Below are positions 5,848 through 32,998 of a DNA stretch of 64,000 nucleotides, one piece after another. A model generated the notes under the pieces. It saw only the letters and a list, made by a program, of their open reading frames with translations. It was not told where the DNA came from and searched no databases. A program made the translations under genes and the position numbers. Position 1 is the stretch's first letter, and each line of letters begins with the position of its first letter. This DNA comes from Carbonactinospora thermoautotrophica (GTDB taxonomy: Bacteria > Actinomycetota > Actinomycetes > Streptomycetales > Carbonactinosporaceae), in contig NZ_JYIJ01000017.1 in NCBI RefSeq assembly GCF_001543895.1, forward strand, positions 620,001 to 684,000, in the 5' to 3' direction.

Positions 5848-5899
5848 CGTTGAGTGTGCGTGTCGTCACACGCGTGTGACGACACGCACACTCGACGCA
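5848..5899. terminator. Long perfect palindrome, probable bidirectional terminator (intact copy)
   Basis: Positions 5852-5893 are a perfect 42-bp palindrome with half-site GAGTGTGCGTGTCGTC plus ACACG. With one mismatch the symmetry extends to 5848-5899. It lies between a + strand gene end and the end of a - strand gene, where a two-way terminator is expected. No U-tract follows. The same 16-bp half-site recurs at 38287-38319, and as two separated halves at 23296 and 32971 flanking the integrated element. This copy equals the reconstructed attB exactly. Confidence 0.8.
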
Positions 5900-13393: not shown

Positions 13394-13666
13394 CCGGAAA
13401 CGATCAACGGGCCCGTGCGGCGTTCGGCTGCTCGCTCCGGCCGCGCGCCGTTGCGGGCCTTCGCCCGCCCGCGTCACCGACCTGTCCGAACAACACACAT
13501 CAGGGCGCGGATGGTGATCCGGCCCAGGCAGCGGACGTAGGACTCGATGGTCTCGCTCGGCCTGGGCCAGACCCGGGGCGGCTCAGAGCGGGCTTCGCGA
13601 GGGACACGAAGATGGAATCATGAGTCGCGCGTGATGTAGTAAAAAAGATGGTCACCACTACGGGGG

Positions 13667-14248
13667 GTGGGTACCACGGACGAGGACGCACGCGTTGTCG
13701 CACGCGTGGTGGCTGGCGATCTCGGCGCGTTCGAAGTGCTCGTTACGCGCTGGCAGCAGGTCGCCCATCGGACCGCGTTGGCGTTGGGCGCTGGCGCGGA
13801 GGCCGAGGACATAGTGCAGGAGGCGTTCCTCAAGGCGTTCCAAAACCTGGCCGGGTTTCGGTCGGGATATTCATTTCAGCCATGGTTGCTGCAAATCGTA
13901 GCGAATGAGACCAAGAACCTGCGCCGGTCTCGCTACCGAAGGCAACGCCTGGAATTTCGGCTTACCGCATTGTTTCTGTCGGATGGGAACATCGCTGGCG
14001 AGGATCCGTATGCAGCCGTGCTACGGGACGAACGAGAACGGCTGCTGTGGAAGACGCTGCAGGAGTTACCGGACAAGTACCGGTTGGTGCTGACCTGCCG
14101 CTACCTCCTGGAGTTATCCGAGGCCGAGACTGCCCAGGTGCTGGGATGGAGACACGGCTCGGTGAAATCCCGAACGTCGCGAGCGCTGGCCAAGTTGCGT
14201 GCCCTGTTGATCCCTGTCGAGACGGGAGAGGTGACCATCCATACCTGA
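13667..14248 (+). CDS. ECF RNA polymerase sigma factor without an adjacent anti-sigma gene
   Basis: A 193-residue extracytoplasmic-function sigma factor. Region 2 runs from about 20 to 85 (EAEDIVQEAFLKAFQNLAGF, then PWLLQIVANETKNLRR) and region 4 from about 125 to 180 (LPDKYRLVLTCRYLLELSEA, then VKSRTSRALAKLR). GTG start within a G-rich leader. Base composition is visibly less GC-rich than in the neighbours. Downstream, where an anti-sigma gene is expected, there is only an IS3 remnant, so the partner may have been lost. Confidence 0.87.
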   Translation: MGTTDEDARVVARVVAGDLGAFEVLVTRWQQVAHRTALALGAGAEAEDIVQEAFLKAFQNLAGFRSGYSFQPWLLQIVANETKNLRRSRYRRQRLEFRLTALFLSDGNIAGEDPYAAVLRDERERLLWKTLQELPDKYRLVLTCRYLLELSEAETAQVLGWRHGSVKSRTSRALAKLRALLIPVETGEVTIHT

Positions 14249-14649
14249 TCCGGATGACAGCCAACCGCGAGAGACGTCGACCGGACGCCGGCTTGACCTG
14301 CCACCTCCGCCGGGGCCGCCGGTACACCTCGGCCGCGTTCGGCGCGCTGTGCGACTCCCTCGGCGTGCCGAGGCCGCACCGGCGTGCGCCGGATAACTGC
14401 CGCCGCCGAAAGCTGTTCGCCAGCCTGAAAAAAGAGCTGTTACACCGGCGCTCCTTCGCCACCCGGGCCGAGGCCCGCCGCGAGATTTCTTGCTGGATCA
14501 AGACCCGGTACAACCGGCGGTGCCTCCACACGAGCCCGGGCTACCTCACGCCCATCGAATGGGAGCATCAGCACCGCACAGACGGTCTGGTACCGTCCGC
14601 CAAACCACATAAGCCAGGCGTCCGGCTGTCGGAGGGAACTCCAGGTTAG
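14249..14649 (+). pseudogene. IS3-family transposase (orfB) 3' remnant
   Basis: The frame ending at 14649 encodes the degraded end of an IS3-type integrase-core transposase. GLTCHLRRGRRYTSAAFGAL corresponds to the usual GLIHHSDRG-QYTS; ASLKKELLHRRSFATRAEAR and TRYNRRCLHTSPGYLTPIEW follow. The catalytic aspartate of HSDRG is lost. No 5' half and no left end are seen. GCCAGGCGTCCGGCTGTC near 14613-14630 may be part of the right terminal repeat. Confidence 0.82.
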
Positions 14650-14874
14650 CTCGCGCCGGGGATAGCGCAGGAGCCATCACTCTCGAGCGCGCCCGCTCGG
14701 TACTGCCTTCCGCCCTCCAGACCGATCTGCCGACGCACTCCAGGCTGAACAAGCCCTCCAACGATTTTCGGTCGCTGTGGAACCTTCACGCCGCCAGCGG
14801 TGTATCAACAGTAGCCCCGCAGGGAGGGCCGTGGCTCGTTCCGCAAGAGTCGATTCGCCTGAAGGAGATTCATA

Positions 14875-15363
14875 ATGCGCCGGTTGACTGCTCGATTAAC
14901 CTTGACGATCAGCGTCTTCGCCAGCCTCTTGGGCTCAGTACTGGCCGCCGCTGATGCCAGCGAGACAACTGGAGCGCCGCTTGCTCCCGCAGCCGTTGGC
15001 GCTGCCGACCCGGCACCGGTTGTCGGCTACACGCCCGTCGTCATGTCCTCTGCCGAACGCGCCGGGGCCACCGGAAGGGACGCCGTGAAGGCCCGCGCCA
15101 AGCACTGGTACGTCAAGGGCAGGCTGGGCGCGTTCCACATCCGCGAAACTCGCAGTGCGACCAGCCGCATCCTCGAAACGGTTCCGGCTGGCCGTGGTGC
15201 CTGGTGCTGGAACCAGCAGCGGGACTGCGGACCCGCCTACAGGGGCGGCAAGTACCGCTGCTCCAGGAGCACACCCCAGTACAGCGACTGGATCCCGGTG
15301 GCCACCTCCAACCGCAAGAAGGGCTGGGTCGCTCGGCACTGCGTCTACGCAACGTATGAGTAG
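14875..15363 (+). CDS. Secreted small protein with SH3-like domain
   Basis: A 162-residue protein with a Sec signal peptide (residues 1-28, MRRLTARLTLTISVFASLLG, then AADA). Its mature part has four cysteines (WCWNQQRDC, KYRCS, RHCV). The segment from HIRETRSATSRILETVPAG to KKGWVARHCVYAT has the strand pattern of bacterial SH3 domains. AAGGAG lies seven bases before the ATG. Neighbours are IS remnants on both sides, so it may be acquired DNA. No enzymatic role is suggested. Confidence 0.75.
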   Translation: MRRLTARLTLTISVFASLLGSVLAAADASETTGAPLAPAAVGAADPAPVVGYTPVVMSSAERAGATGRDAVKARAKHWYVKGRLGAFHIRETRSATSRILETVPAGRGAWCWNQQRDCGPAYRGGKYRCSRSTPQYSDWIPVATSNRKKGWVARHCVYATYE

Positions 15364-15586
15364 ACCTCGTCCGCACCCGTCCTGCGCACGACCTGACGTT
15401 CCCTCCCGGCGGTTAGGTCTGTGGCCGCGCGTCATGCGGGTTATCAGCCGGTCTGCGGCATAACCTGCCTTGGCGTGTGACGGCCGCCAGCGGAACCTTC
15501 AACGAAGACCGGCGTCGAGGCTCCTGGCGAGGGGCTCGGCGCCGGTCGCCGAGGTATTCCCCGCCTCGACCGCTGAAGTCGCTCGC

Positions 15587-15922
15587 TTAACCCCTGAGAG
15601 CGTGTGCGGGTGGGTCTAGGCTGACCTGTGCGGCAGGTCGAGGGTGTCGGTGGCGCTGGGGCGCGTGCGGCCTGGGCTTGCCCGCGTCGTAGCCGCGCTC
15701 GGCGGTGCCGTCGGCCTCCCCGCGGGCGAAGTCGTCATAGGCGGTGGTGGGGGGTGGGAAGGCGTGCGGCAGGTACCGCCAGGGGATGCCGGTGCGGGCC
15801 AGGTACAGGATGGCGTTGACGGTCTCGCGGAGGTCGTGTGTGCCGATGCGCACCGGGCGGGGTGGCAGCAGCGGGGCGATCAGGGTCTGTCGCTCAGGTC
15901 GGTCGGCGCTGAGCTGGGTCAC
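15587..15922 (-). pseudogene. IS5-family transposase remnant, internally deleted
   Basis: Read on the minus strand from the GTG at 15922: [20 protein letters not shown], then [38 protein letters not shown]. This is the DUF4096-type N-terminal domain of IS5/IS1182-like transposases. It then jumps to GYDAGK, which belongs to the middle of the enzyme (GYDAGKKVKGRKRH), and runs out of frame. The DDE core is missing. The remaining 15364-15586 shows only the inverted pair GACCGGCG / CGCCGGTC and no gene. Confidence 0.8.
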
Positions 15923-23254: not shown

Positions 23255-23295
23255 GGCGCATCCGCTGTCATCCGCACCCGTCCGGGCACCGCGTC

Positions 23296-23327
23296 GAGTG
23301 TGCGTGTCGTCACACGCGTGTGCTTGC
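23296..23327. other. attL: left half of the split host palindrome joined to the element
   Basis: 23296-23322 repeats the first 27 bases of the intact palindrome at 5852, ending CACACGCGTGTG. The element sequence CTTGCTGG starts at 23323. The core shared with attR is GTGTG (23318-23322). Confidence 0.85.
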
Positions 23328-23365
23328 TGGTTAAGTCAGTAGCACTGTACCAGCAAGGAGCTATC

Positions 23366-23686
23366 ATGATGCGTCTCGTTGGTAGAAGGGTGTACCTGAT
23401 CGCCCCGTTCGACGCCGAGCAAGAGGCCGCCACGTGGCTTATCCGCCGAGGAGCGGCGTCGATTATAATTCCCCGCGCGCTCCCGGACACGCTCAGCGCC
23501 GAGGAAGCCGAGCACATCTACTGGATGCGCGTTAGCGACGTGTGCTTTGCGGATGCTGTGGTCCGCACTGTCGATGCGCCGCATGCGCCGGTGGAGATCC
23601 GGGTTGCGAGCGCACTTGGACTGCCGATCCTCACCGTTGCCCGCGACCGCTATGGGCGCGGGTTCGAGCCCATCGGTGAGGATTAG
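23366..23686 (+). CDS. Nucleoside 2-deoxyribosyltransferase-like / DUF4406-like small protein
   Basis: About 106 residues. VYLIAPFDAEQEAATWLIRR, then MRVSDVCFADAVVR and EIRVASALGLPILTVAR, resemble the compact nucleoside-deoxyribosyltransferase-like fold of phage DUF4406 proteins (YLAGP..., D-AV, E---A--LG-P). The family glutamate seems present in PVEIRVA, but this is by eye. Two adjacent ATGs (23366, 23369) follow AAGGAG at 23355-23360. That site overlaps one arm of the inverted repeat CTTGCTGGT / ACCAGCAAG (23323-23331, 23349-23357), which could fold over it. First gene inside the element, followed by a strong terminator. Confidence 0.6.
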   Translation: MMRLVGRRVYLIAPFDAEQEAATWLIRRGAASIIIPRALPDTLSAEEAEHIYWMRVSDVCFADAVVRTVDAPHAPVEIRVASALGLPILTVARDRYGRGFEPIGED

Positions 23687-23712
23687 CGCCAGCGGCCGAG
23701 CGCTGGCAGCAG

Positions 23713-23747
23713 AAGGAGCCCAGGTAGGTGCGTTACCTGGGCTCCTT
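23713..23747 (+). terminator. Intrinsic terminator after the first element gene
   Basis: AAGGAGCCCAGGTA (23713-23726), a 7-base loop, and TACCTGGGCTCCTT (23734-23747) form a perfect 14-bp stem ending in TTT. It closes the transcript of the gene at 23366, and could also serve the opposing Cys-rich gene. Confidence 0.8.
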
Positions 23748-23796
23748 TGGCGTTCCTGGATGCGTTGCCCTGTTCAGGGGAGTGATGTCGACCGGA

Positions 23797-24105
23797 TCAC
23801 GTGAACGGTATCCAACCACCTCCCGTCCCAACGCCGAAGATGTCGCATTTAGTACACCTACACTCGGCCGGATGCACGTACATCACGCCGGAGCAGACGG
23901 TGTCAGGTACGCGCTGGCACCAGTGAGCGCGGCATGTGGGGCAGGCGTAACACTTCAGCCCGTTCTGCTCACGGACGTACAGCGGATGCCCCAACCAAGT
24001 CGACTCGGGCACGACCGGTCCGCGCCCTAAGTCGCGGGTCGGTGGGGAATCGCCGTTGAAGCTTGCGATCGTTGACCTCCCTTCCGTCTCGGTATAGCAC
24101 GGCAA
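23797..24105 (-). CDS. Cysteine-rich small protein (probable zinc binding)
   Basis: Up to 102 residues from a TTG start at 24105. Eight cysteines lie at 52, 55, 58, 63, 71, 82, 84 and 87 of this version (KCYACPTC, ECRCTKC), suggesting one or two zinc sites. GGGAGG occurs inside the N-terminal part, so the true start may be later; the Cys region is unaffected. The only element gene besides the integrase on the minus strand. Not recognised beyond its zinc-ribbon look. Confidence 0.5.
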   Translation of the reverse strand: MPCYTETEGRSTIASFNGDSPPTRDLGRGPVVPESTWLGHPLYVREQNGLKCYACPTCRAHWCQRVPDTVCSGVMYVHPAECRCTKCDIFGVGTGGGWIPFT

Positions 24106-24170
24106 TTGCCGAGCCTACCGGAAAATGTCGATCAGCGGGAGGGGTTCATCAATCTGGGTACCGTCTCGGC

Positions 24171-24407
24171 GTGTCGCGCGAATGGCTGACCACGCAGGAA
24201 GCGGCGGCCCTGCTGGGCGTGTCCGAGCGCCGGATGCGCCAGCTTGCCGCGCGGTTGGGCGCGAGGAAGCAACCCGATGGTCTACTGCTGTTTCCGCGCT
24301 CAGCAGTGGAGCAGGAACGGGAGCGACGCGCGTCGGGTAGGCCCGTGGCTGAGCCTGAGCGACCACGGCGACCGGTTGCAGACGTGCTTGAGGACTTGCT
24401 TCAGTGA
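24171..24407 (+). CDS. Small helix-turn-helix protein, excisionase-like
   Basis: 78 residues from the GTG at 24171. LTTQEAAALLGVSERRMRQ, then a short wing (KQPDGLLLFPRSAVEQ), is the MerR-like HTH_17/excisionase fold. A short Arg/Pro tail follows. Such proteins act as recombination directionality factors or as repressors in integrative elements; its position near attL fits either. The ribosome site is weak. Confidence 0.7.
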   Translation: MSREWLTTQEAAALLGVSERRMRQLAARLGARKQPDGLLLFPRSAVEQERERRASGRPVAEPERPRRPVADVLEDLLQ

Positions 24408-24527
24408 GGTTCGAGCGCTCCGTCGCGCTGTCGAGCGCGGGAAGGACGCCGAGGACGACGGCGACGGCCAGAGCCGGTAGCGCGCTCGGCGGAACGCGCT
24501 CGGCGGCAAGGGCGCGGGCGGGTGGAG

Positions 24528-24716
24528 CGCCGGGAGAGCGGGGCGGCAGTCGGTAGGGAAGTGGATTTTAGGTGGACGTGACGTGCAAGAGTAACTGTTG
24601 ATTGATTGTACAAGTTGTGTTTGCTGCTTTAGATACAACAAACTCAGTGAACTTTTAGTTGTCACCTCCACCCAAAATCCACTCTCGATCGGCCGATCGC
24701 GCCCGCTCTCCCGGCG
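24528..24716. repeat. Long imperfect inverted repeat around an AT-rich spacer
   Basis: Arms at 24528-24582 and 24661-24716. The inner 23 bases (24560-24582 versus 24661-24683: AGTGGATTTT, then GGTGGA, then GTGAC) match at 21 of 23. The outer CGCCGGGAGAGCGGG blocks match over 14-15. The 78-bp spacer is the most AT-rich DNA in the element. The right arm contains the perfect palindrome GATCGGCCGATC (24687-24698). It has the look of a replication origin, a partition site or a small inverted-repeat insertion. It occupies the 24408-25160 gene-free gap. Confidence 0.75.
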
Positions 24717-25160
24717 TCGACCCCGCCGCGCAGACCGCGCCCGCCGGTCGAGCTGGCATCGCCCGCGATCGTCAGGACTGCCCGTAGAACGCCACAGGAC
24801 GCGATCTGAGCGTCTTTTCATGGTTGTTCGGTACTCCAGGACCAACGGCAGCGTTTTAGCCCGCCAGAGACCGTCTGTGGCCGTTCCTGAGTCCGCCAGC
24901 GGAGTCCTGACCGTACCGCCGCCGCGCCCCCGGCGTTCCTATCGGCCAGCACGTTTCGGAATCCGGGAATTTCCACGAATTTTCTGGCGATCTAGGCTGT
25001 GACTGGGGCAGGTAGCACCAGCATCGAAGGCGGACGGCACTCCTAGCTTTCGATGTCCGAAAAGGTACCGGTTTCTGTGCTACCCCGCTGGCCCATTTCT
25101 TCTATAGAAGCGGCGGATGACTCTTGCCGCTCTCGGGTCACTGCGGACGGATTCGGGTCG
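24717..25160. other. Gene-free stretch, probably leader or regulatory DNA
   Basis: No convincing coding sequence on either strand. Possible leader of the transcript that ends at, or reads through, the terminator at 25161-25200. A short ATG frame from 25117 shows no coding signature and continues as a shadow through the next gene. Confidence 0.4.
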
Positions 25161-25200
25161 CCCGTCCGGCCACGTCATGGGCCGGGCGGGTCTTCTTTTT
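25161..25200 (+). terminator. Intrinsic terminator or attenuator before the zinc-ribbon gene
   Basis: CCCGTCCGGCC (25161-25171), an 8-base loop and GGCCGGGCGGG (25180-25190; one T-G pair), then TCTTCTTTTT. This is a textbook terminator. It stands 37 bases before the next ATG in the same direction with no gene just before it, so it suggests attenuation or a short upstream RNA. Confidence 0.75.
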
Positions 25201-25237
25201 GGCGCTGAAACCGTTAGTCACAGTTTCTGGAGGGACG

Positions 25238-25525
25238 ATGCCCGCTGTGTGCGTGGTGTGCGGTACGCAGCTACCGCCAGACAGCCGCTCGCATCGCCAG
25301 ACGTGCAGCGGGCGCTGTCGCCACCGTCTTTACGTCCGGCGCCGGAGAGAGCTTGGGCGGCGGTTGCTCGACGATTTCGCGAGGTTCGTCGACGAGTACG
25401 GCACGCCGGAGCAACAGGCCGCGTTCCGCGAACTGCTGGAGACCGTTCCCGGCGCTGATGTCACGTTCGGAGACGCGCTGTACCGAGCTGCGTTGCTCGA
25501 CGCCTTCAAGGAGGATGCCCGATGA
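25238..25525 (+). CDS. Small zinc-ribbon protein of the element
   Basis: 95 residues. The N-terminus has a four-cysteine knuckle (CVVCGTQLP, then CSGRCRHR; Cys 5, 8, 23, 27) typical of small DUF2116-like zinc ribbons of phages and mobile elements. The rest is helical and charged. GGAGG lies five bases before the ATG. Its TGA overlaps the next ATG (ATGA at 25522-25525), so the two are coupled. Confidence 0.65.
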   Translation: MPAVCVVCGTQLPPDSRSHRQTCSGRCRHRLYVRRRRELGRRLLDDFARFVDEYGTPEQQAAFRELLETVPGADVTFGDALYRAALLDAFKEDAR

Positions 25526-25836
25526 CCACGCCGGGAGATGTTGTCCACAGTCTTGCCGCGTTGGACCGCGTGCTCAAGCTGGCACGTGCGGCGCAGTACG
25601 AGCCTTCGAGGCTCTTCGAACAGCTGTCAGCTCCCAACGGCGGCCCAGACGAGACGGCATCGATCGCGCTCGATTCCGGCCGCCTCGACTTGAGCGACGC
25701 TGTTCGCGCAGCGGAGGATACCTTGGAGGCCGTGGTTGAGTGGATTGAGCATTGCAGGTGGCAAATCACACGTGCCCTGGAACGTGGGTACGTCGACAAC
25801 GCTGAGAGCTCAACCGCAGCGTCCGCCGCGTGTTGA
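25522..25836 (+). CDS. Element protein of unknown function
   Basis: 104 residues, acidic and helical (SLAALDRVLKLARAAQ, AVRAAEDTLEAVVEWIEH). No family is recognised. Translationally coupled to the zinc-ribbon gene by the ATGA overlap, so the two products may act together. Confidence 0.6.
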   Translation: MTTPGDVVHSLAALDRVLKLARAAQYEPSRLFEQLSAPNGGPDETASIALDSGRLDLSDAVRAAEDTLEAVVEWIEHCRWQITRALERGYVDNAESSTAASAAC

Positions 25837-26157: not shown

Positions 26158-26997
26158 ATGAAGACAATAGACGAGGCGAATCTTGGGACCGCGGCGAAGC
26201 GCTGTACTCAGTGCGGTGAGATCAAACCACTGACTGAGTTCAACCGCGACGCCCGGAGCCGTGATGGTCGGCGGGCGTACTGCAAGAGGTGCCATCGCGC
26301 CCGCGCTCGCGCCCGTGTCGAGGCTGGTCTGTGTCGCGCGGATGGATGCCCAAACCTCGCGGCTGAGGGAAAGACCCGCTGCGTCGCGCATCTTGAAGCC
26401 AATCGCGTCCACGATCGCGCCCGCCGCCGTGCCCGTGTCGAGTCCGGTCTGTGTCGCGAGGATGGATGCCCAAACCTCGCGATGGCCGGCAAGACCCGCT
26501 GTGTCGAGCACCTTGAAGACAAGCGCGCCTACAATCGCGCCCGCCGCACCGCTCTCGCCGAGCGGACACCAGAGCAGATCGCGGCTGACCGATCGAGACT
26601 TCGACCAAACGGTCTGAAGCGCTGCCGAAAGTGTCGGGAGCGGCTCCCGTTCGAAGCGTTCGCGGTAAACGTTGTGAACCCTGACGGTCTGCACTACGAC
26701 TGCCGCACATGCGCCAACACCGCACTCCTTCGCCGCGCTCTCCCGCGCTGGTCGGAACTGGACACGTGGACCTGTGTCTACTGCGGTCAGGACTTTGCCC
26801 ACGTCGACCACGTGGTCCCGGTCTCCCGTGGTGGCACTGATGATCCCGCGAACCTCGCCCCGGCGTGTCAGTCCTGCAACATCAGCAAGAACGCAACGCC
26901 AGTTCTCGCCTTCATCGACCGCCAGTACCCCGGCCTTCTCGACCAGCTCTCCCACTGGCCGGTCCGCTACGTCGAGCTGGTCGGCGAAGTCGCGTGA
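26158..26997 (+). CDS. HNH endonuclease with tandem zinc-binding repeats
   Basis: 279 residues. An N-terminal Cys4 knuckle (CTQCGEIKP, CKRCHRAR) is followed by two 40-residue repeats at about 52-91 and 92-131 (GLCRxDGCPNLA, GKTRCVxHLE). A further Cys pair (RCRKCRERLPFEAF) comes next, and then the HNH domain from about 206: CVYCGQDFAHVDHVVP, with ACQSCNISKN closing the motif. The catalytic His is in VDHVVP. The repeats are also alike at DNA level (120-bp period), so they arose by a recent duplication. GGAG precedes the ATG. HNH proteins of phages can be homing nucleases or packaging cofactors; which applies here is open. Confidence 0.85.
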   Translation: MKTIDEANLGTAAKRCTQCGEIKPLTEFNRDARSRDGRRAYCKRCHRARARARVEAGLCRADGCPNLAAEGKTRCVAHLEANRVHDRARRRARVESGLCREDGCPNLAMAGKTRCVEHLEDKRAYNRARRTALAERTPEQIAADRSRLRPNGLKRCRKCRERLPFEAFAVNVVNPDGLHYDCRTCANTALLRRALPRWSELDTWTCVYCGQDFAHVDHVVPVSRGGTDDPANLAPACQSCNISKNATPVLAFIDRQYPGLLDQLSHWPVRYVELVGEVA

Positions 26998-27324: not shown

Positions 27325-28476
27325 ATGTCTGCCGAGACCCATTCGCTTCCCGAAGACGTTCGTAACCGCTTCGCCGCGCTGGTCGCCAAGTACTATCGCG
27401 GGAGAGTCCGGCTCATCATGTTCCGAGGGTGGGCGTTCGGCGAGCCTAAGATGCCGCTCCCTGAACCGTGCCAACTCGCCGGAGACGTGATCGCGCCCCT
27501 GCTGGAATCCGAGTTCCGCGTTGTGTGGAGCTATGACGATAAAGTAACCGCTGTCAGGGTGCGCCGAGACGATCCCACGAAGGCCGATCCTATCCCCCGG
27601 CGCAAGCTTCGCGAGATCGTCTGCGCGGTGCTGAGCGAGTTTCCGGATTACGAGCGGGAGCACCATAACGGCAAGCGCGGAGCGTTCTTCGTCGACATTC
27701 GCCAAGCCATACGCAACGCCCGCCGAGTGGCTAAGGTCGGCACTCGGCGAAGCAACAGATGGGTCAACGACCTGATCTCGGCAACGATTGATTACCTGGG
27801 CGCGCTCGACCCCGACGTTGAAGTCGTCTGGCGGCGGTCCTCAGACTCGCTGACCGCCGAGCAAACGCGGCATGCGAGACAGTACCTAGAACAGCTCTCG
27901 CCCGGCGTCTATCGACCGCTCGAACTGTTCGAGGCGTACCGCACCGCTCCCGGCGCGAAGGTTACGCCCGCGGATATGGCGGCGTTTCTGCGATTGGCGG
28001 ATGACGTGCTCGGTAGGCGTATGAAGCTTGGCGGACGTTCGGTGTACCGAGTTGTCGCGAAGAACACGCCGGAGCACGCGCGACAGTTCTTGGCGTCGCT
28101 CGCACCTGGTCGCTACCGGACGACCGAGATTTGGCAGCGGTACCGCGTGGCGTGTGAGCGAGACGGCATCAAGCCGATGGGCAAGCGTGCTTTCTACGCG
28201 CTGGCCGATGAGGTGATCGGTAAGCGAGTCACGGTCGATGGCTACCAGTGCTACCGAGTAAAGGAGACCCGCATGGGACCCGCACAGCACCGGAACGAAC
28301 TCGCCCGGATCGTCCTTGACCGGATCGTGGACAAACTCGTTGCTGAGGTGCGCGAGACGATCGCCACGGGCGGAGTGGACGCCGACCAGCAGACCACGTC
28401 GGCACCAACGACCGTTCAGGCGACCGGCTCAAACATTGTCGACCTCGCTTCCCGGCGTGCGCGCCGCACGGTCTGA
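27325..28476 (+). CDS. Element protein with a duplicated, possibly winged-helix domain
   Basis: 383 residues, not assigned to a named family. Two similar ~62-residue segments lie at about 182-244 and 252-312. Both run ARQ[YF]L, then LxPGxYR, then a Y-R turn, a hydrophobic FxxLADxVxGxR helix and a final YRV. The pattern recalls winged-helix domains of phage and plasmid primases, so origin binding is one possibility. The N-terminal ~170 residues (FRGWAFGEPK, RRKLREIVCAVLSEFP) show no catalytic motif. GGAGG lies seven bases before the ATG. Its place in the middle of the element suits a replication initiator, but no primase or helicase motif is seen. Confidence 0.6.
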   Translation: MSAETHSLPEDVRNRFAALVAKYYRGRVRLIMFRGWAFGEPKMPLPEPCQLAGDVIAPLLESEFRVVWSYDDKVTAVRVRRDDPTKADPIPRRKLREIVCAVLSEFPDYEREHHNGKRGAFFVDIRQAIRNARRVAKVGTRRSNRWVNDLISATIDYLGALDPDVEVVWRRSSDSLTAEQTRHARQYLEQLSPGVYRPLELFEAYRTAPGAKVTPADMAAFLRLADDVLGRRMKLGGRSVYRVVAKNTPEHARQFLASLAPGRYRTTEIWQRYRVACERDGIKPMGKRAFYALADEVIGKRVTVDGYQCYRVKETRMGPAQHRNELARIVLDRIVDKLVAEVRETIATGGVDADQQTTSAPTTVQATGSNIVDLASRRARRTV

Positions 28477-28854: not shown

Positions 28855-29838
28855 ATGCCGAAGCTCGCTGATCGTCCCCTGTACTCCGGCTTGCTGGGTG
28901 CGGCGGCCTACGAGGAACCGGAGCCTGACCCCGCCGAGATGGCCGCGCGCGTTCTCCGACGTCGTGCCGAGATGGAGGGCGGTAACGCTCCAGACCCCGC
29001 CGTGTTCGCGGCCCGCCAGACTGATGACGAAGAGATCGTCAAGGCTGCGACGTACCTTGCCGATGTCGGCCGGTTGCCGAGTTGGACTGAGGTTCGCACT
29101 CCGGCACCTGTCGCTGAAGCGATCGGGCGCCTGAACAAGGCTGTTGAGGTCGGGGAGGTCGCTCTTCGCAAGATCTACGAGCTCGACCGCGCCCGGCTCG
29201 ACGCCGCGAGGAAGGCAGAAGCCGAAGCGGTCGAAGCGATCGAGGCCGGAGAGCGACCGAAGCCGTTCAAGCTGGACCCGAAGCTGATCGAGGATCGAGA
29301 GGCCGCCGTTGTCGAGCTGCGCGCCGCGCTGAAGGTCGTTGGTAGGCGCCGGACTGCTGTCGATGCCGCGATTCGTGACGCGCTGCCCGCGTGGCTGATC
29401 GAGCTGCGCGAGGTGTTTCGTGAGCACGTTGAAGGTATGCGCGAGCATGTCGGCCGGTTGCTCGATCACTTCGAGTCGTGGAAGCGTGCCGCGTTCGACG
29501 TCATCAACGCCGACGCCCACGCTGCGACGATGCCCGGTACTCGCGATCGGTCGCTGCGCCCCGGTGCGTCTGGGTTCGTGTCCCGCGTCAACGCTGTGTC
29601 TTACGGCGATGTCGCGTACATCGGGCATTGGTTGCGGGAGCTGGAGCGGGCCTTGAACAACCCGCAGTCGACGGATTGGCTGCGCTGGATCGATGCGATT
29701 CCGCTCGTTCCCGGCGATGTCGTCGACGATGGCAACGCCAGCAACGCGGACAGCGGTACCGACAACAGCACCGACAACAGCACCGACAACGGCAGCGATA
29801 GCAGCGCCAGCGGTGCACGGCGTCGTTCACGTGGGTGA
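28855..29838 (+). CDS. Helical element protein with Asp/Asn/Ser/Thr-rich tail
   Basis: 327 residues, not recognised. Mostly amphipathic helix with a long charged stretch (LDAARKAEAEAVEAIEAGER). The tail contains a short repeat (STDNSTDN), reflected in the DNA as repeated ACAACAGCACCG units near 29760-29790, and ends RRRSRG. AAAGGAGG lies ten bases before the ATG. A structural or scaffolding role would fit a phage-like element, but nothing in the sequence proves it. Confidence 0.6.
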   Translation: MPKLADRPLYSGLLGAAAYEEPEPDPAEMAARVLRRRAEMEGGNAPDPAVFAARQTDDEEIVKAATYLADVGRLPSWTEVRTPAPVAEAIGRLNKAVEVGEVALRKIYELDRARLDAARKAEAEAVEAIEAGERPKPFKLDPKLIEDREAAVVELRAALKVVGRRRTAVDAAIRDALPAWLIELREVFREHVEGMREHVGRLLDHFESWKRAAFDVINADAHAATMPGTRDRSLRPGASGFVSRVNAVSYGDVAYIGHWLRELERALNNPQSTDWLRWIDAIPLVPGDVVDDGNASNADSGTDNSTDNSTDNGSDSSASGARRRSRG

Positions 29839-30323: not shown

Positions 30324-30722
30324 ATGCCAGATCTGGAAAATCCGCTCGATCTCGGCGACGCCGGGCGCGCGTTTTACGCCGAGGTCACCGCGAAATACGA
30401 ACTGAATGTTGACGAATTGCGCATCCTCGCGGCCGCGGCGAAGACGTTGGACGAACTCGCCGCGCTGGAAGCGATGGTGAAGGAACACGGCGTTGTCGCG
30501 AAGGGTTCACGGGGACAGTTGCGCGTGTCGCCCGCGATCGAAGCTATTCGCGAACATCGCGCGCTATTCCTGCGACTCGTTGGCGCGCTTGCGCTACCGC
30601 AAGACGACGGTTCGACACTCGCGACCGGCACAGTGTCGCGCGCCCGTCGCGCGGCCGAAGCACGGTGGCGCAACCACCGCGCGGCTAAGGCGACTGCCCG
30701 TGCGCACTTCGGCACGGCGTAG
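30324..30722 (+). CDS. Phage terminase small subunit, P27-like
   Basis: 132 residues from the ATG at 30324 with GGGAG eight bases upstream; an in-frame ATG at 30288 is less likely. The run LGDAGRAFYAEVTAKYEL, then DELRILAAAAKTLDELAALE, a glycine/serine turn (VVAKGSRGQLRVSPAIEAI) and REHRALFLRLVGALALP fits the short P27-like small terminase subunits of actinobacteriophages and their elements. This protein would recognise DNA for packaging. No large subunit gene is present in the window, so it would need a helper phage or be a relic. Confidence 0.75.
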   Translation: MPDLENPLDLGDAGRAFYAEVTAKYELNVDELRILAAAAKTLDELAALEAMVKEHGVVAKGSRGQLRVSPAIEAIREHRALFLRLVGALALPQDDGSTLATGTVSRARRAAEARWRNHRAAKATARAHFGTA

Positions 30723-31500: not shown

Positions 31501-32925
31501 CTAGTCGAAGTCCGCCGGTCCCTCGCGCCAATAGATCCGAATCCGCTTAGGATCGAACCGCCGTCCCGTGGCCGGCTCGACCGTCGCGGCCGCGATCGCG
31601 TCCAACAACAGCGACCGCCGGCCGGGAACGTCCCGCACCTGCCACTCGTCGGAGAGCGTCCGATCAGTCCGGACCATCTCGACCCGCGTCTCGGTAGGCA
31701 ACGCGGCCCGGCGTTCCCGCTCGGCGTGAAGAGACTGAAGCCGAGCGAACAACTCGGCCGACGGGTTCTGTCCCAGCTCCGCCAACGTCGCAGCGATCGC
31801 GTCTTCGACCTCGGCCAGTCCGTTGTCGGCCGCAACCACACGGCGGATGACCAGCGGGAGGCGGCCGTATGCGCCGAGAAACAGCTGCTCGACCGTCTGA
31901 TCGGCGCGTTCGGCGGAGATGGCGACCGGTCGCGGACAGGTGAACCCGTCACTAGCCGCCGCGCAGCGGTAGTTGGGTGGCGAGACACGCAAAGGCCTGG
32001 AGCATCCCGAGCACTTCAGCACACCGGAGAGCAACCGGGCGTGTGGTCGACCGCCCTTGCGGATTGGTGAACCCTCACCCGCGCGCAGGATCGCACGCAG
32101 CGCGGCATGCTCGGCCGGTGTGATGATCTGTGGCCACGCCTGGACCGGGTACCCATCGTCACCGCGAACGGGCGCGCCGCGATACGTGATCCGGCCGAGG
32201 ATCGCATTACCGGTAAGACAAGCGATCAGGGACGGGCGCGTCCAAGACTTGCCCCTGCGCGGTTTTACGCCTTGCTCGTTCAACCATCGAGCCGCAGCAC
32301 CAGGGGAAGCGCCGGAGAGGATCATCTCAGCGGCCGCGCGCAAGGCGTCGGCCTCACTCGGTTCGATCTCCAGTGCCTTCCCGGCGCCATCGGGGTGCGG
32401 AACGACGCGGTACCCGAACGGGACGTGGCCGCCGTACCAGCGCCGGGCCGCGATCAGACGTTGCTGTAGCGCTGCGTTACGCGCGCGAATCCGCTCGCGT
32501 TCCTTCCGTGCGCCTTCGGCCTCCAGCACGAACCGAATCCGGAACGCGAACTCGTCTTCAGAGTCCAATCCGTGACAGTCGATGAACCTCACGGGCGGAC
32601 GAACGACACGGCCAGTAGTCGTGTCCTTCCCCTCGACCACGTCGAGGATCATCGCTGCTGCTTGCAGACCCTCACGGGTCAAGCGGTCCACGTGCCATGT
32701 CGCTAGGACGTCTACACGTCCCTCCCGCGCGTCGTCCAACCAGGCTAGGAACTCCGGGCGGTTCCGGATCGCGCCGGATCGTCCGTCGTCAACGTGAACC
32801 GGACCGACCTCGGCGCCGATCCGAGCGCACGCGGCCCGAATGTCATCTTCCATACCATCCCGGCTCAGGTTGCCGTCGCCCGCGGCGTGCGAGAGCCGGA
32901 TGTAAGCGCTTGCCTTGCTTGCCAT
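31501..32925 (-). CDS. Large serine recombinase (integrase)
   Basis: 474 residues from the ATG at 32925. The resolvase domain starts ASAYIRLS, with the catalytic serine at residue 12. It continues through HVDDGRSGAIRNRPEFLAWL and TWHVDRLTREG. The long helix (RKERERIRARNAALQQRL) leads to a recombinase domain (HVPFGYRV, WLNEQGVKPRRGKSWTRPSL). A zinc ribbon (LKCSGCSRPL, CAAASDGFTCPRP) and a coiled-coil segment follow. This is the architecture of phage-type serine integrases. It lies 46 bp from attR and reads away from it, so its promoter overlaps the att site. Longer upstream frames run into host DNA and are not starts. Confidence 0.95.
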   Translation of the reverse strand: MASKASAYIRLSHAAGDGNLSRDGMEDDIRAACARIGAEVGPVHVDDGRSGAIRNRPEFLAWLDDAREGRVDVLATWHVDRLTREGLQAAAMILDVVEGKDTTTGRVVRPPVRFIDCHGLDSEDEFAFRIRFVLEAEGARKERERIRARNAALQQRLIAARRWYGGHVPFGYRVVPHPDGAGKALEIEPSEADALRAAAEMILSGASPGAAARWLNEQGVKPRRGKSWTRPSLIACLTGNAILGRITYRGAPVRGDDGYPVQAWPQIITPAEHAALRAILRAGEGSPIRKGGRPHARLLSGVLKCSGCSRPLRVSPPNYRCAAASDGFTCPRPVAISAERADQTVEQLFLGAYGRLPLVIRRVVAADNGLAEVEDAIAATLAELGQNPSAELFARLQSLHAERERRAALPTETRVEMVRTDRTLSDEWQVRDVPGRRSLLLDAIAAATVEPATGRRFDPKRIRIYWREGPADFD

Positions 32926-32956
32926 GGCTCCATCTTCCGGTGTACTGTGCTTATCG

Positions 32957-32998
32957 GCAAGCATACGCGGGTGTGACGACACGCACACTCGACGCAAG
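32957..32998. other. attR: element end joined to the right half of the host palindrome
   Basis: Element end GCAAGCATACGCGG (32957-32970), core GTGTG (32971-32975), host half ACGACACGCACACTC (32976-32990) and GACGCAAG. The last 23 bases after the core match 5879-5901 exactly. The reconstructed attP (32957-32970 + GTGTG + CTTGC) is itself an imperfect palindrome with GCAAGCA / TGCTTGC ends. Confidence 0.85.

Follow-up and report, generated by a model that had tools for sequence, protein, structure and literature searches.

A giant palindrome as a candidate replication origin in a satellite-like serine-integrase element of an actinobacterium

What is the function of a long inverted repeat wrapped around AT-rich DNA in an actinobacterial chromosome? 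The initial annotation of a 64-kb window (the whole stretch analysed here, C17:620001-684000 of a 5.13-Mb actinobacterial draft genome) had marked such a repeat as a candidate for an integrative element's origin or control locus. Its inner arms (24560-24582 and 24661-24683) match at 21 of 23 positions and lie 78 bp apart, exactly as claimed, and the short sequence reported inside one arm, GATCGGCCGATC, is indeed there. The repeat is also larger than was thought: the arms, put at about 55 bp, reach about 100 nt, and the whole forms a single imperfect palindrome of 220 bases. The outer arms (24517-24542 and 24702-24727) match at 81%, and once small indels are allowed the structure folds as one stem of 81-88 pairs, with a predicted energy of -125.2 kcal/mol on the plus strand and -117.4 kcal/mol on the minus strand (z about -10; 0 of 200 shuffles match the fold). 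The arm-to-arm alignment scores 43, whereas 300 shuffles gave 22 at most. The palindrome ranks first in the window (score 44; next 30) and has the top score, 46, across the 524 kb of the genome that was scanned. Its core has 33-40% GC, against approximately 65% for the mobile element in which it lies.

This element, E1, is 9.7 kb long and lower in GC than its surroundings, and the palindrome is located between its HTH_17 regulator and its downstream gene cluster (Table 1). The region had been described as non-coding from 24408 to 25237; this is true of 24484-25237, in which no conserved protein was found, and the first part, 24408-24483, holds the HTH gene's C-terminal tail. The conserved stretch immediately downstream of the palindrome, which is probably a promoter/operator region, gave about equal similarity in all six frames, a pattern not specific to coding sequence. 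Among the ten element proteins scanned, we detected no capsid, tail or large-terminase gene, and the absence of capsid genes suggests a satellite-like island. The combination of a serine integrase and an HTH_17 protein within 9.7 kb, no structural gene, and terS without TerL is what would be expected of phage satellites, and by its gene content E1 resembles either a reduced prophage or a phage satellite. No known Rep, primase or helicase was recognised in the element proteins; because this satellite primase/rep module was not found, E1 is compared with phage-inducible islands (PICIs) here and is not filed as one. Relatives of the integrase in genome contigs were distant Firmicutes proteins only, and those of the orphan protein at 28855 were weak partial matches only. 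We also noted that the HNH gene contains a 120-bp tandem duplication (26294-26533, 83%) of a zinc-ribbon-like segment.

Table 1. Features of the palindrome and of the surrounding element, in window coordinates.
Feature	Position	Strand	Remarks
attL: left half of host palindrome, then element end	23291-23340	+	
Zinc-ribbon protein, divergent from HTH gene	23797-24105	-	Conserved in E2 and E3
HTH_17 / excisionase-like protein, BldC/Xis fold	24171-24407	+	Tail 24408-24483 frameshifted relative to paralogue
Giant imperfect palindrome, GC-rich outer arms and AT-rich core	24512-24731		Arms about 24512-24610 and 24634-24731
Two GTGGA boxes 11 bp apart, left arm (24561, 24572)	24561-24576	+	Mirrored as TCCAC at 24667, 24678
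AT-rich core, candidate melting region	24585-24665		GC profile, 33-40% GC
GATCGGCCGATC, perfect 12-bp palindrome within right arm	24687-24698		
Non-coding stretch downstream of palindrome	24745-25062		About 74% identical in E2
Intrinsic terminator before zinc-finger gene	25160-25198	+	E2: same place, other stem sequence
Treble-clef zinc-finger protein, first gene of downstream cluster	25238-25525	+	
DUF7169 protein	25522-25836	+	
HNH endonuclease	26158-26997	+	PHROG endonuclease VII / HNH
Orphan protein, two wHTH-like repeats; candidate initiator	27325-28476	+	
Orphan protein, no family	28855-29838	+	
P27-like terminase small subunit; element without large subunit	30324-30722	+	PHROG 1496, E 9e-14
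Large serine integrase	31501-32925	-	44% to Streptomyces phage Dubu integrase; start codon by inspection
attR: element end, then right half of host palindrome	32945-32996	+	

A 31-bp sequence marks both ends of the element in opposite orientations (23291-23321 and 32965-32995), the two copies being the halves of a perfect host palindrome, GCGTCGAGTGTGCGTGTCGTCACACG plus its reverse complement. The host palindrome measures 48-52 bp (GTCGAGTGTGCGTGTCGTCACACG plus its reverse complement, with a variable centre) and is present in dozens of copies in the genome, including a further site in the window at 5849-5896; intact copies were read at several loci. Half-sites number 60 in the forward and 63 in the reverse direction (up to 2 mismatches; control, 0), and, allowing up to 3 mismatches, we counted 27 occurrences of the 38-bp centre, a self-complementary pattern that none of 98 other genomes in the order contains. 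Since the element ends are half-palindromes and intact copies exist elsewhere, E1 occupies the middle of one copy of this palindrome, which its serine integrase appears to use as attB. One contig (C16) breaks off within the right end of the element (403300-403378) and another (C13) starts within its left end (1-79), each edge adjoining a half palindrome with different flanks (L196 and L197). These edges are probably a second near-identical copy of the element, seated in another copy of the palindrome and split by the assembler, a join that we infer.

A DNA search with E1 identified a paralogous element, E2, on contig C13. It aligns with the window at 23497-24546 (68% identity) and at 24712-25062 (74%), with no alignment between these segments. 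The E2 middle, about 370 bp and unrelated to that of E1, likewise forms a giant palindrome around an AT-rich core; its arms (L140 14236-14391 and 14434-14568) are identical in 104 of 159 aligned columns. Exact TGGAACTT boxes occur 11 times in it, distributed over both strands and mirrored in order about the core; no 8-mer reached more than 3 copies in 500 shuffles. In the 524 kb scanned, the E2 palindrome is second in strength only to that of E1, a ranking that is not wholly independent, as the C13 stretch was included partly for an earlier short match there. Position and architecture thus persist between the two elements while the sequence turns over, a pattern best matched by a replication origin of the iteron/AT-rich kind or by a site of nucleoprotein assembly. 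An architecture kept without its sequence argues against a chance inverted duplication or a miniature inverted-repeat transposon (MITE) and for a functional DNA site, and the comparison also argues that the recognition boxes of such a site evolve or get exchanged as a cassette. The earlier suggestion, that an integrative element has its origin or control locus here, is therefore supported in part: the site belongs to a serine-integrase element whose paralogue has an iteron-rich giant palindrome, unrelated in sequence, at the same position.

E2 is decayed, retaining after the palindrome a terminator and a zinc-finger fragment before the chromosome resumes at what looks like metG. It is flanked by a 57-bp direct repeat (CTGTCCGCCCGGCTGAGCCGGTGACGGGG...CCCGTAG; L140, about 13430-15700), just upstream of the metG-like gene, a boundary different in kind from that of E1. 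A unit composed of 'TGGCCCATTxCTC..' and a hairpin is present twice in tandem before the E2 terminator (L140 13620-13840, minus strand) and once in E1 (about 25090-25140). On contig C15, a third element, E3, keeps only the zinc ribbon and the HTH gene; the palindrome region is absent and there is no array. A strong terminator hairpin after the first gene of E1 (23713-23747) is kept in E2 and E3 with different stem sequences.

We found no third element with such a palindrome, and no homologous element in the genomes searched. The inner-arm pattern had 24 matches in viral contigs, 0 of them with a mirrored arm, and no comparable palindrome was present at 16 loci of TerS homologues or in the integrase-related phages Dubu and Samy (for Samy, in the end region). 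Two candidates were set aside: a high palindrome score at one TerS locus (L115) was caused by a run of N, and a strong palindrome at L200, close to a weak HTH match, is unrelated and resembles the telomere of a linear chromosome.

Which protein might recognise the arms? The HTH_17 protein matches BldC and the Pukovnik Xis in fold, and BldC is known to bind 9-bp direct repeats cooperatively (PMC5859096). Here too, a protein of the same winged-helix (wHTH) fold adjoins boxes that lie 9-11 bp apart within a cluster in E2 and 11 bp in E1, and it may be the box-binding protein, as an initiator or a regulator. The sites themselves differ: the BldC consensus is AATTNNNN(C), whereas those here are TGGAACTT (E2) or GTGGA (E1) in a palindromic arrangement. 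The GTGGA boxes are a possible counterpart of the TGGAACTT boxes, though a weak one taken alone; the window's own palindrome holds five GTGGA in 260 bp, not convincing as an iteron array, and each E1 arm has only two or three short boxes. The tail of the HTH gene lies in another frame in E1 and is intact and in frame in E2, a difference that may be due to decay, or to an error in the sequence of a collapsed repeat. Another candidate for the initiator or partner of the site, as yet unproven, is the orphan protein 27325. Its similarity is limited to two weak wHTH repeats, its predicted structure is a low-confidence fold too poor to interpret, and no relatives were found in viral contigs, genome contigs, phages, plasmids, 392 genomes of the order or 395 of the class.

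Bacterial replicon origins typically comprise an AT-rich region plus repeats, and both palindromes place an AT-rich candidate melting region beside repeats (core GC 33-40% in E1 and 33-43% in E2). We consider it about an even chance (probability roughly 0.5) that the palindrome is the replication origin, or origin core, of the 9.7-kb satellite-like element. The short repeated boxes in both arms would bind an element-encoded protein symmetrically around the core, either the adjacent HTH_17 (Xis/BldC-like) protein or 27325 with its two wHTH repeats; the core would then open, and the excised circle would be copied. We infer these steps of binding, melting and replication from what is directly observed, namely the palindrome, the element with its ends, and the paralogue. 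Short iterons also characterise the origins of SaPIs (PMC7581432) and of PLEs (PMC7145576). The case for an origin is weakened by the lack of a recognised initiator, by E1 boxes that do not persuade as iterons, and by the lack of a third element. A more specific version, which we put forward tentatively, is a palindromic origin whose symmetry and position are conserved and whose box set has been wholly replaced between flanks 68-74% identical, in an element that would spread within the genome via its repeated attB.

Such an anatomy could also belong to an operator or to an excision/synapsis complex. As an alternative to an origin, the palindrome may be a nucleoprotein assembly site on which the HTH_17 protein oligomerises at the arm boxes and controls a downstream promoter or excision. 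This reading is possible, if doubtful: the HTH gene is directly on one side of the palindrome and the downstream operon on the other, with the conserved promoter-like region and terminator adjacent, the fold is shared with BldC and the Pukovnik Xis, which oligomerise on DNA, and AlpA/HTH_17 proteins control PICMI satellites (PMC10803314). However, an array of 220-300 bp symmetric about an AT-rich core exceeds the needs of an operator, and E3 has no array, although it retains both the HTH gene and the zinc ribbon. A structured non-coding RNA, in the form of a 220-nt regulatory or RNase III-processed hairpin within a transcript running from the HTH gene to 25198, is improbable despite the very stable fold and a terminator that would close such a transcript. 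Most arm differences are transversions (30 of 47), and those involving wobble show no G-U bias on either strand (5 versus 3 in E1, 5 versus 4 in E2), so the symmetry looks to have been maintained as a property of the DNA and not of an RNA stem. There was also no Rfam match, in either a scan of the window or a permissive scan of the region, and E2 lacks a counterpart of the smaller hairpin predicted downstream.

Similarly improbable is a packaging (pac/cos-like) or single-strand-initiation site, recognised by the small terminase or converting single strands to duplex. Long imperfect hairpins are typical of single-strand origins, and the element does encode a P27-like TerS and an HNH protein without TerL; nevertheless, the palindrome is 5.6 kb from terS, decayed E2 retains its array without terS, and no rolling-circle initiator was recognised in the element proteins. 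The least probable reading, and a very unlikely one, is that of a MITE or other palindromic insertion, which the initial annotation had raised on the grounds of its resemblance to a small inverted-repeat transposon. Its anatomy is indeed that of terminal inverted repeats, and the genome contains a two-copy foldback element of approximately 190 bp, MITE-like, with ends GAGCGTGTTGCG (L130:8147-8320 and L131:3233-3423). A search for further copies of the palindrome found none in its own genome, in relatives, or in phage and plasmid DNA, with 99 genomes of the order giving only short GC-rich matches. Nor is a target-site duplication visible at 24511/24732, and the sister element carries a different palindrome at the same position.

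If the palindrome is indeed an origin, its closest parallel is with the iteron origins of SaPIs and other PICIs, in which short repeated boxes likewise occupy a non-coding region of a small integrative element, a likeness best seen in E2. In SaPIs, however, the origin immediately follows a Rep helicase gene (PMC7581432), whereas in E1 an HTH_17 gene is the neighbour, no Rep helicase is recognised, and a single giant palindrome makes up the whole site. PICMI satellites, which combine int, AlpA/HTH_17 and a primase, share with E1 an integrase, an HTH_17-type regulator, few genes and no capsid genes. E1 differs in having no recognised primase, a large serine integrase, terS with HNH and an actinobacterial host, and in integrating in a dispersed palindrome, not beside fis. 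The Streptomyces satellites MulchRoom and MiniFlayer are also actinobacterial and encode HNH and small terminase proteins, but they carry large terminase, portal and capsid genes (PMC10690885), all three of which E1 lacks.

E1 and E2 offer a testable pair, with unrelated sequences in an equal palindrome architecture; specificity would be expected to follow the HTH gene if incompatibility drove the turnover of the palindrome. To our knowledge, the origins of actinobacterial satellite-like elements are largely uncharacterised. The integrase, in turn, would provide a natural example of a serine integrase for which a single genome holds dozens of near-identical attB sites.
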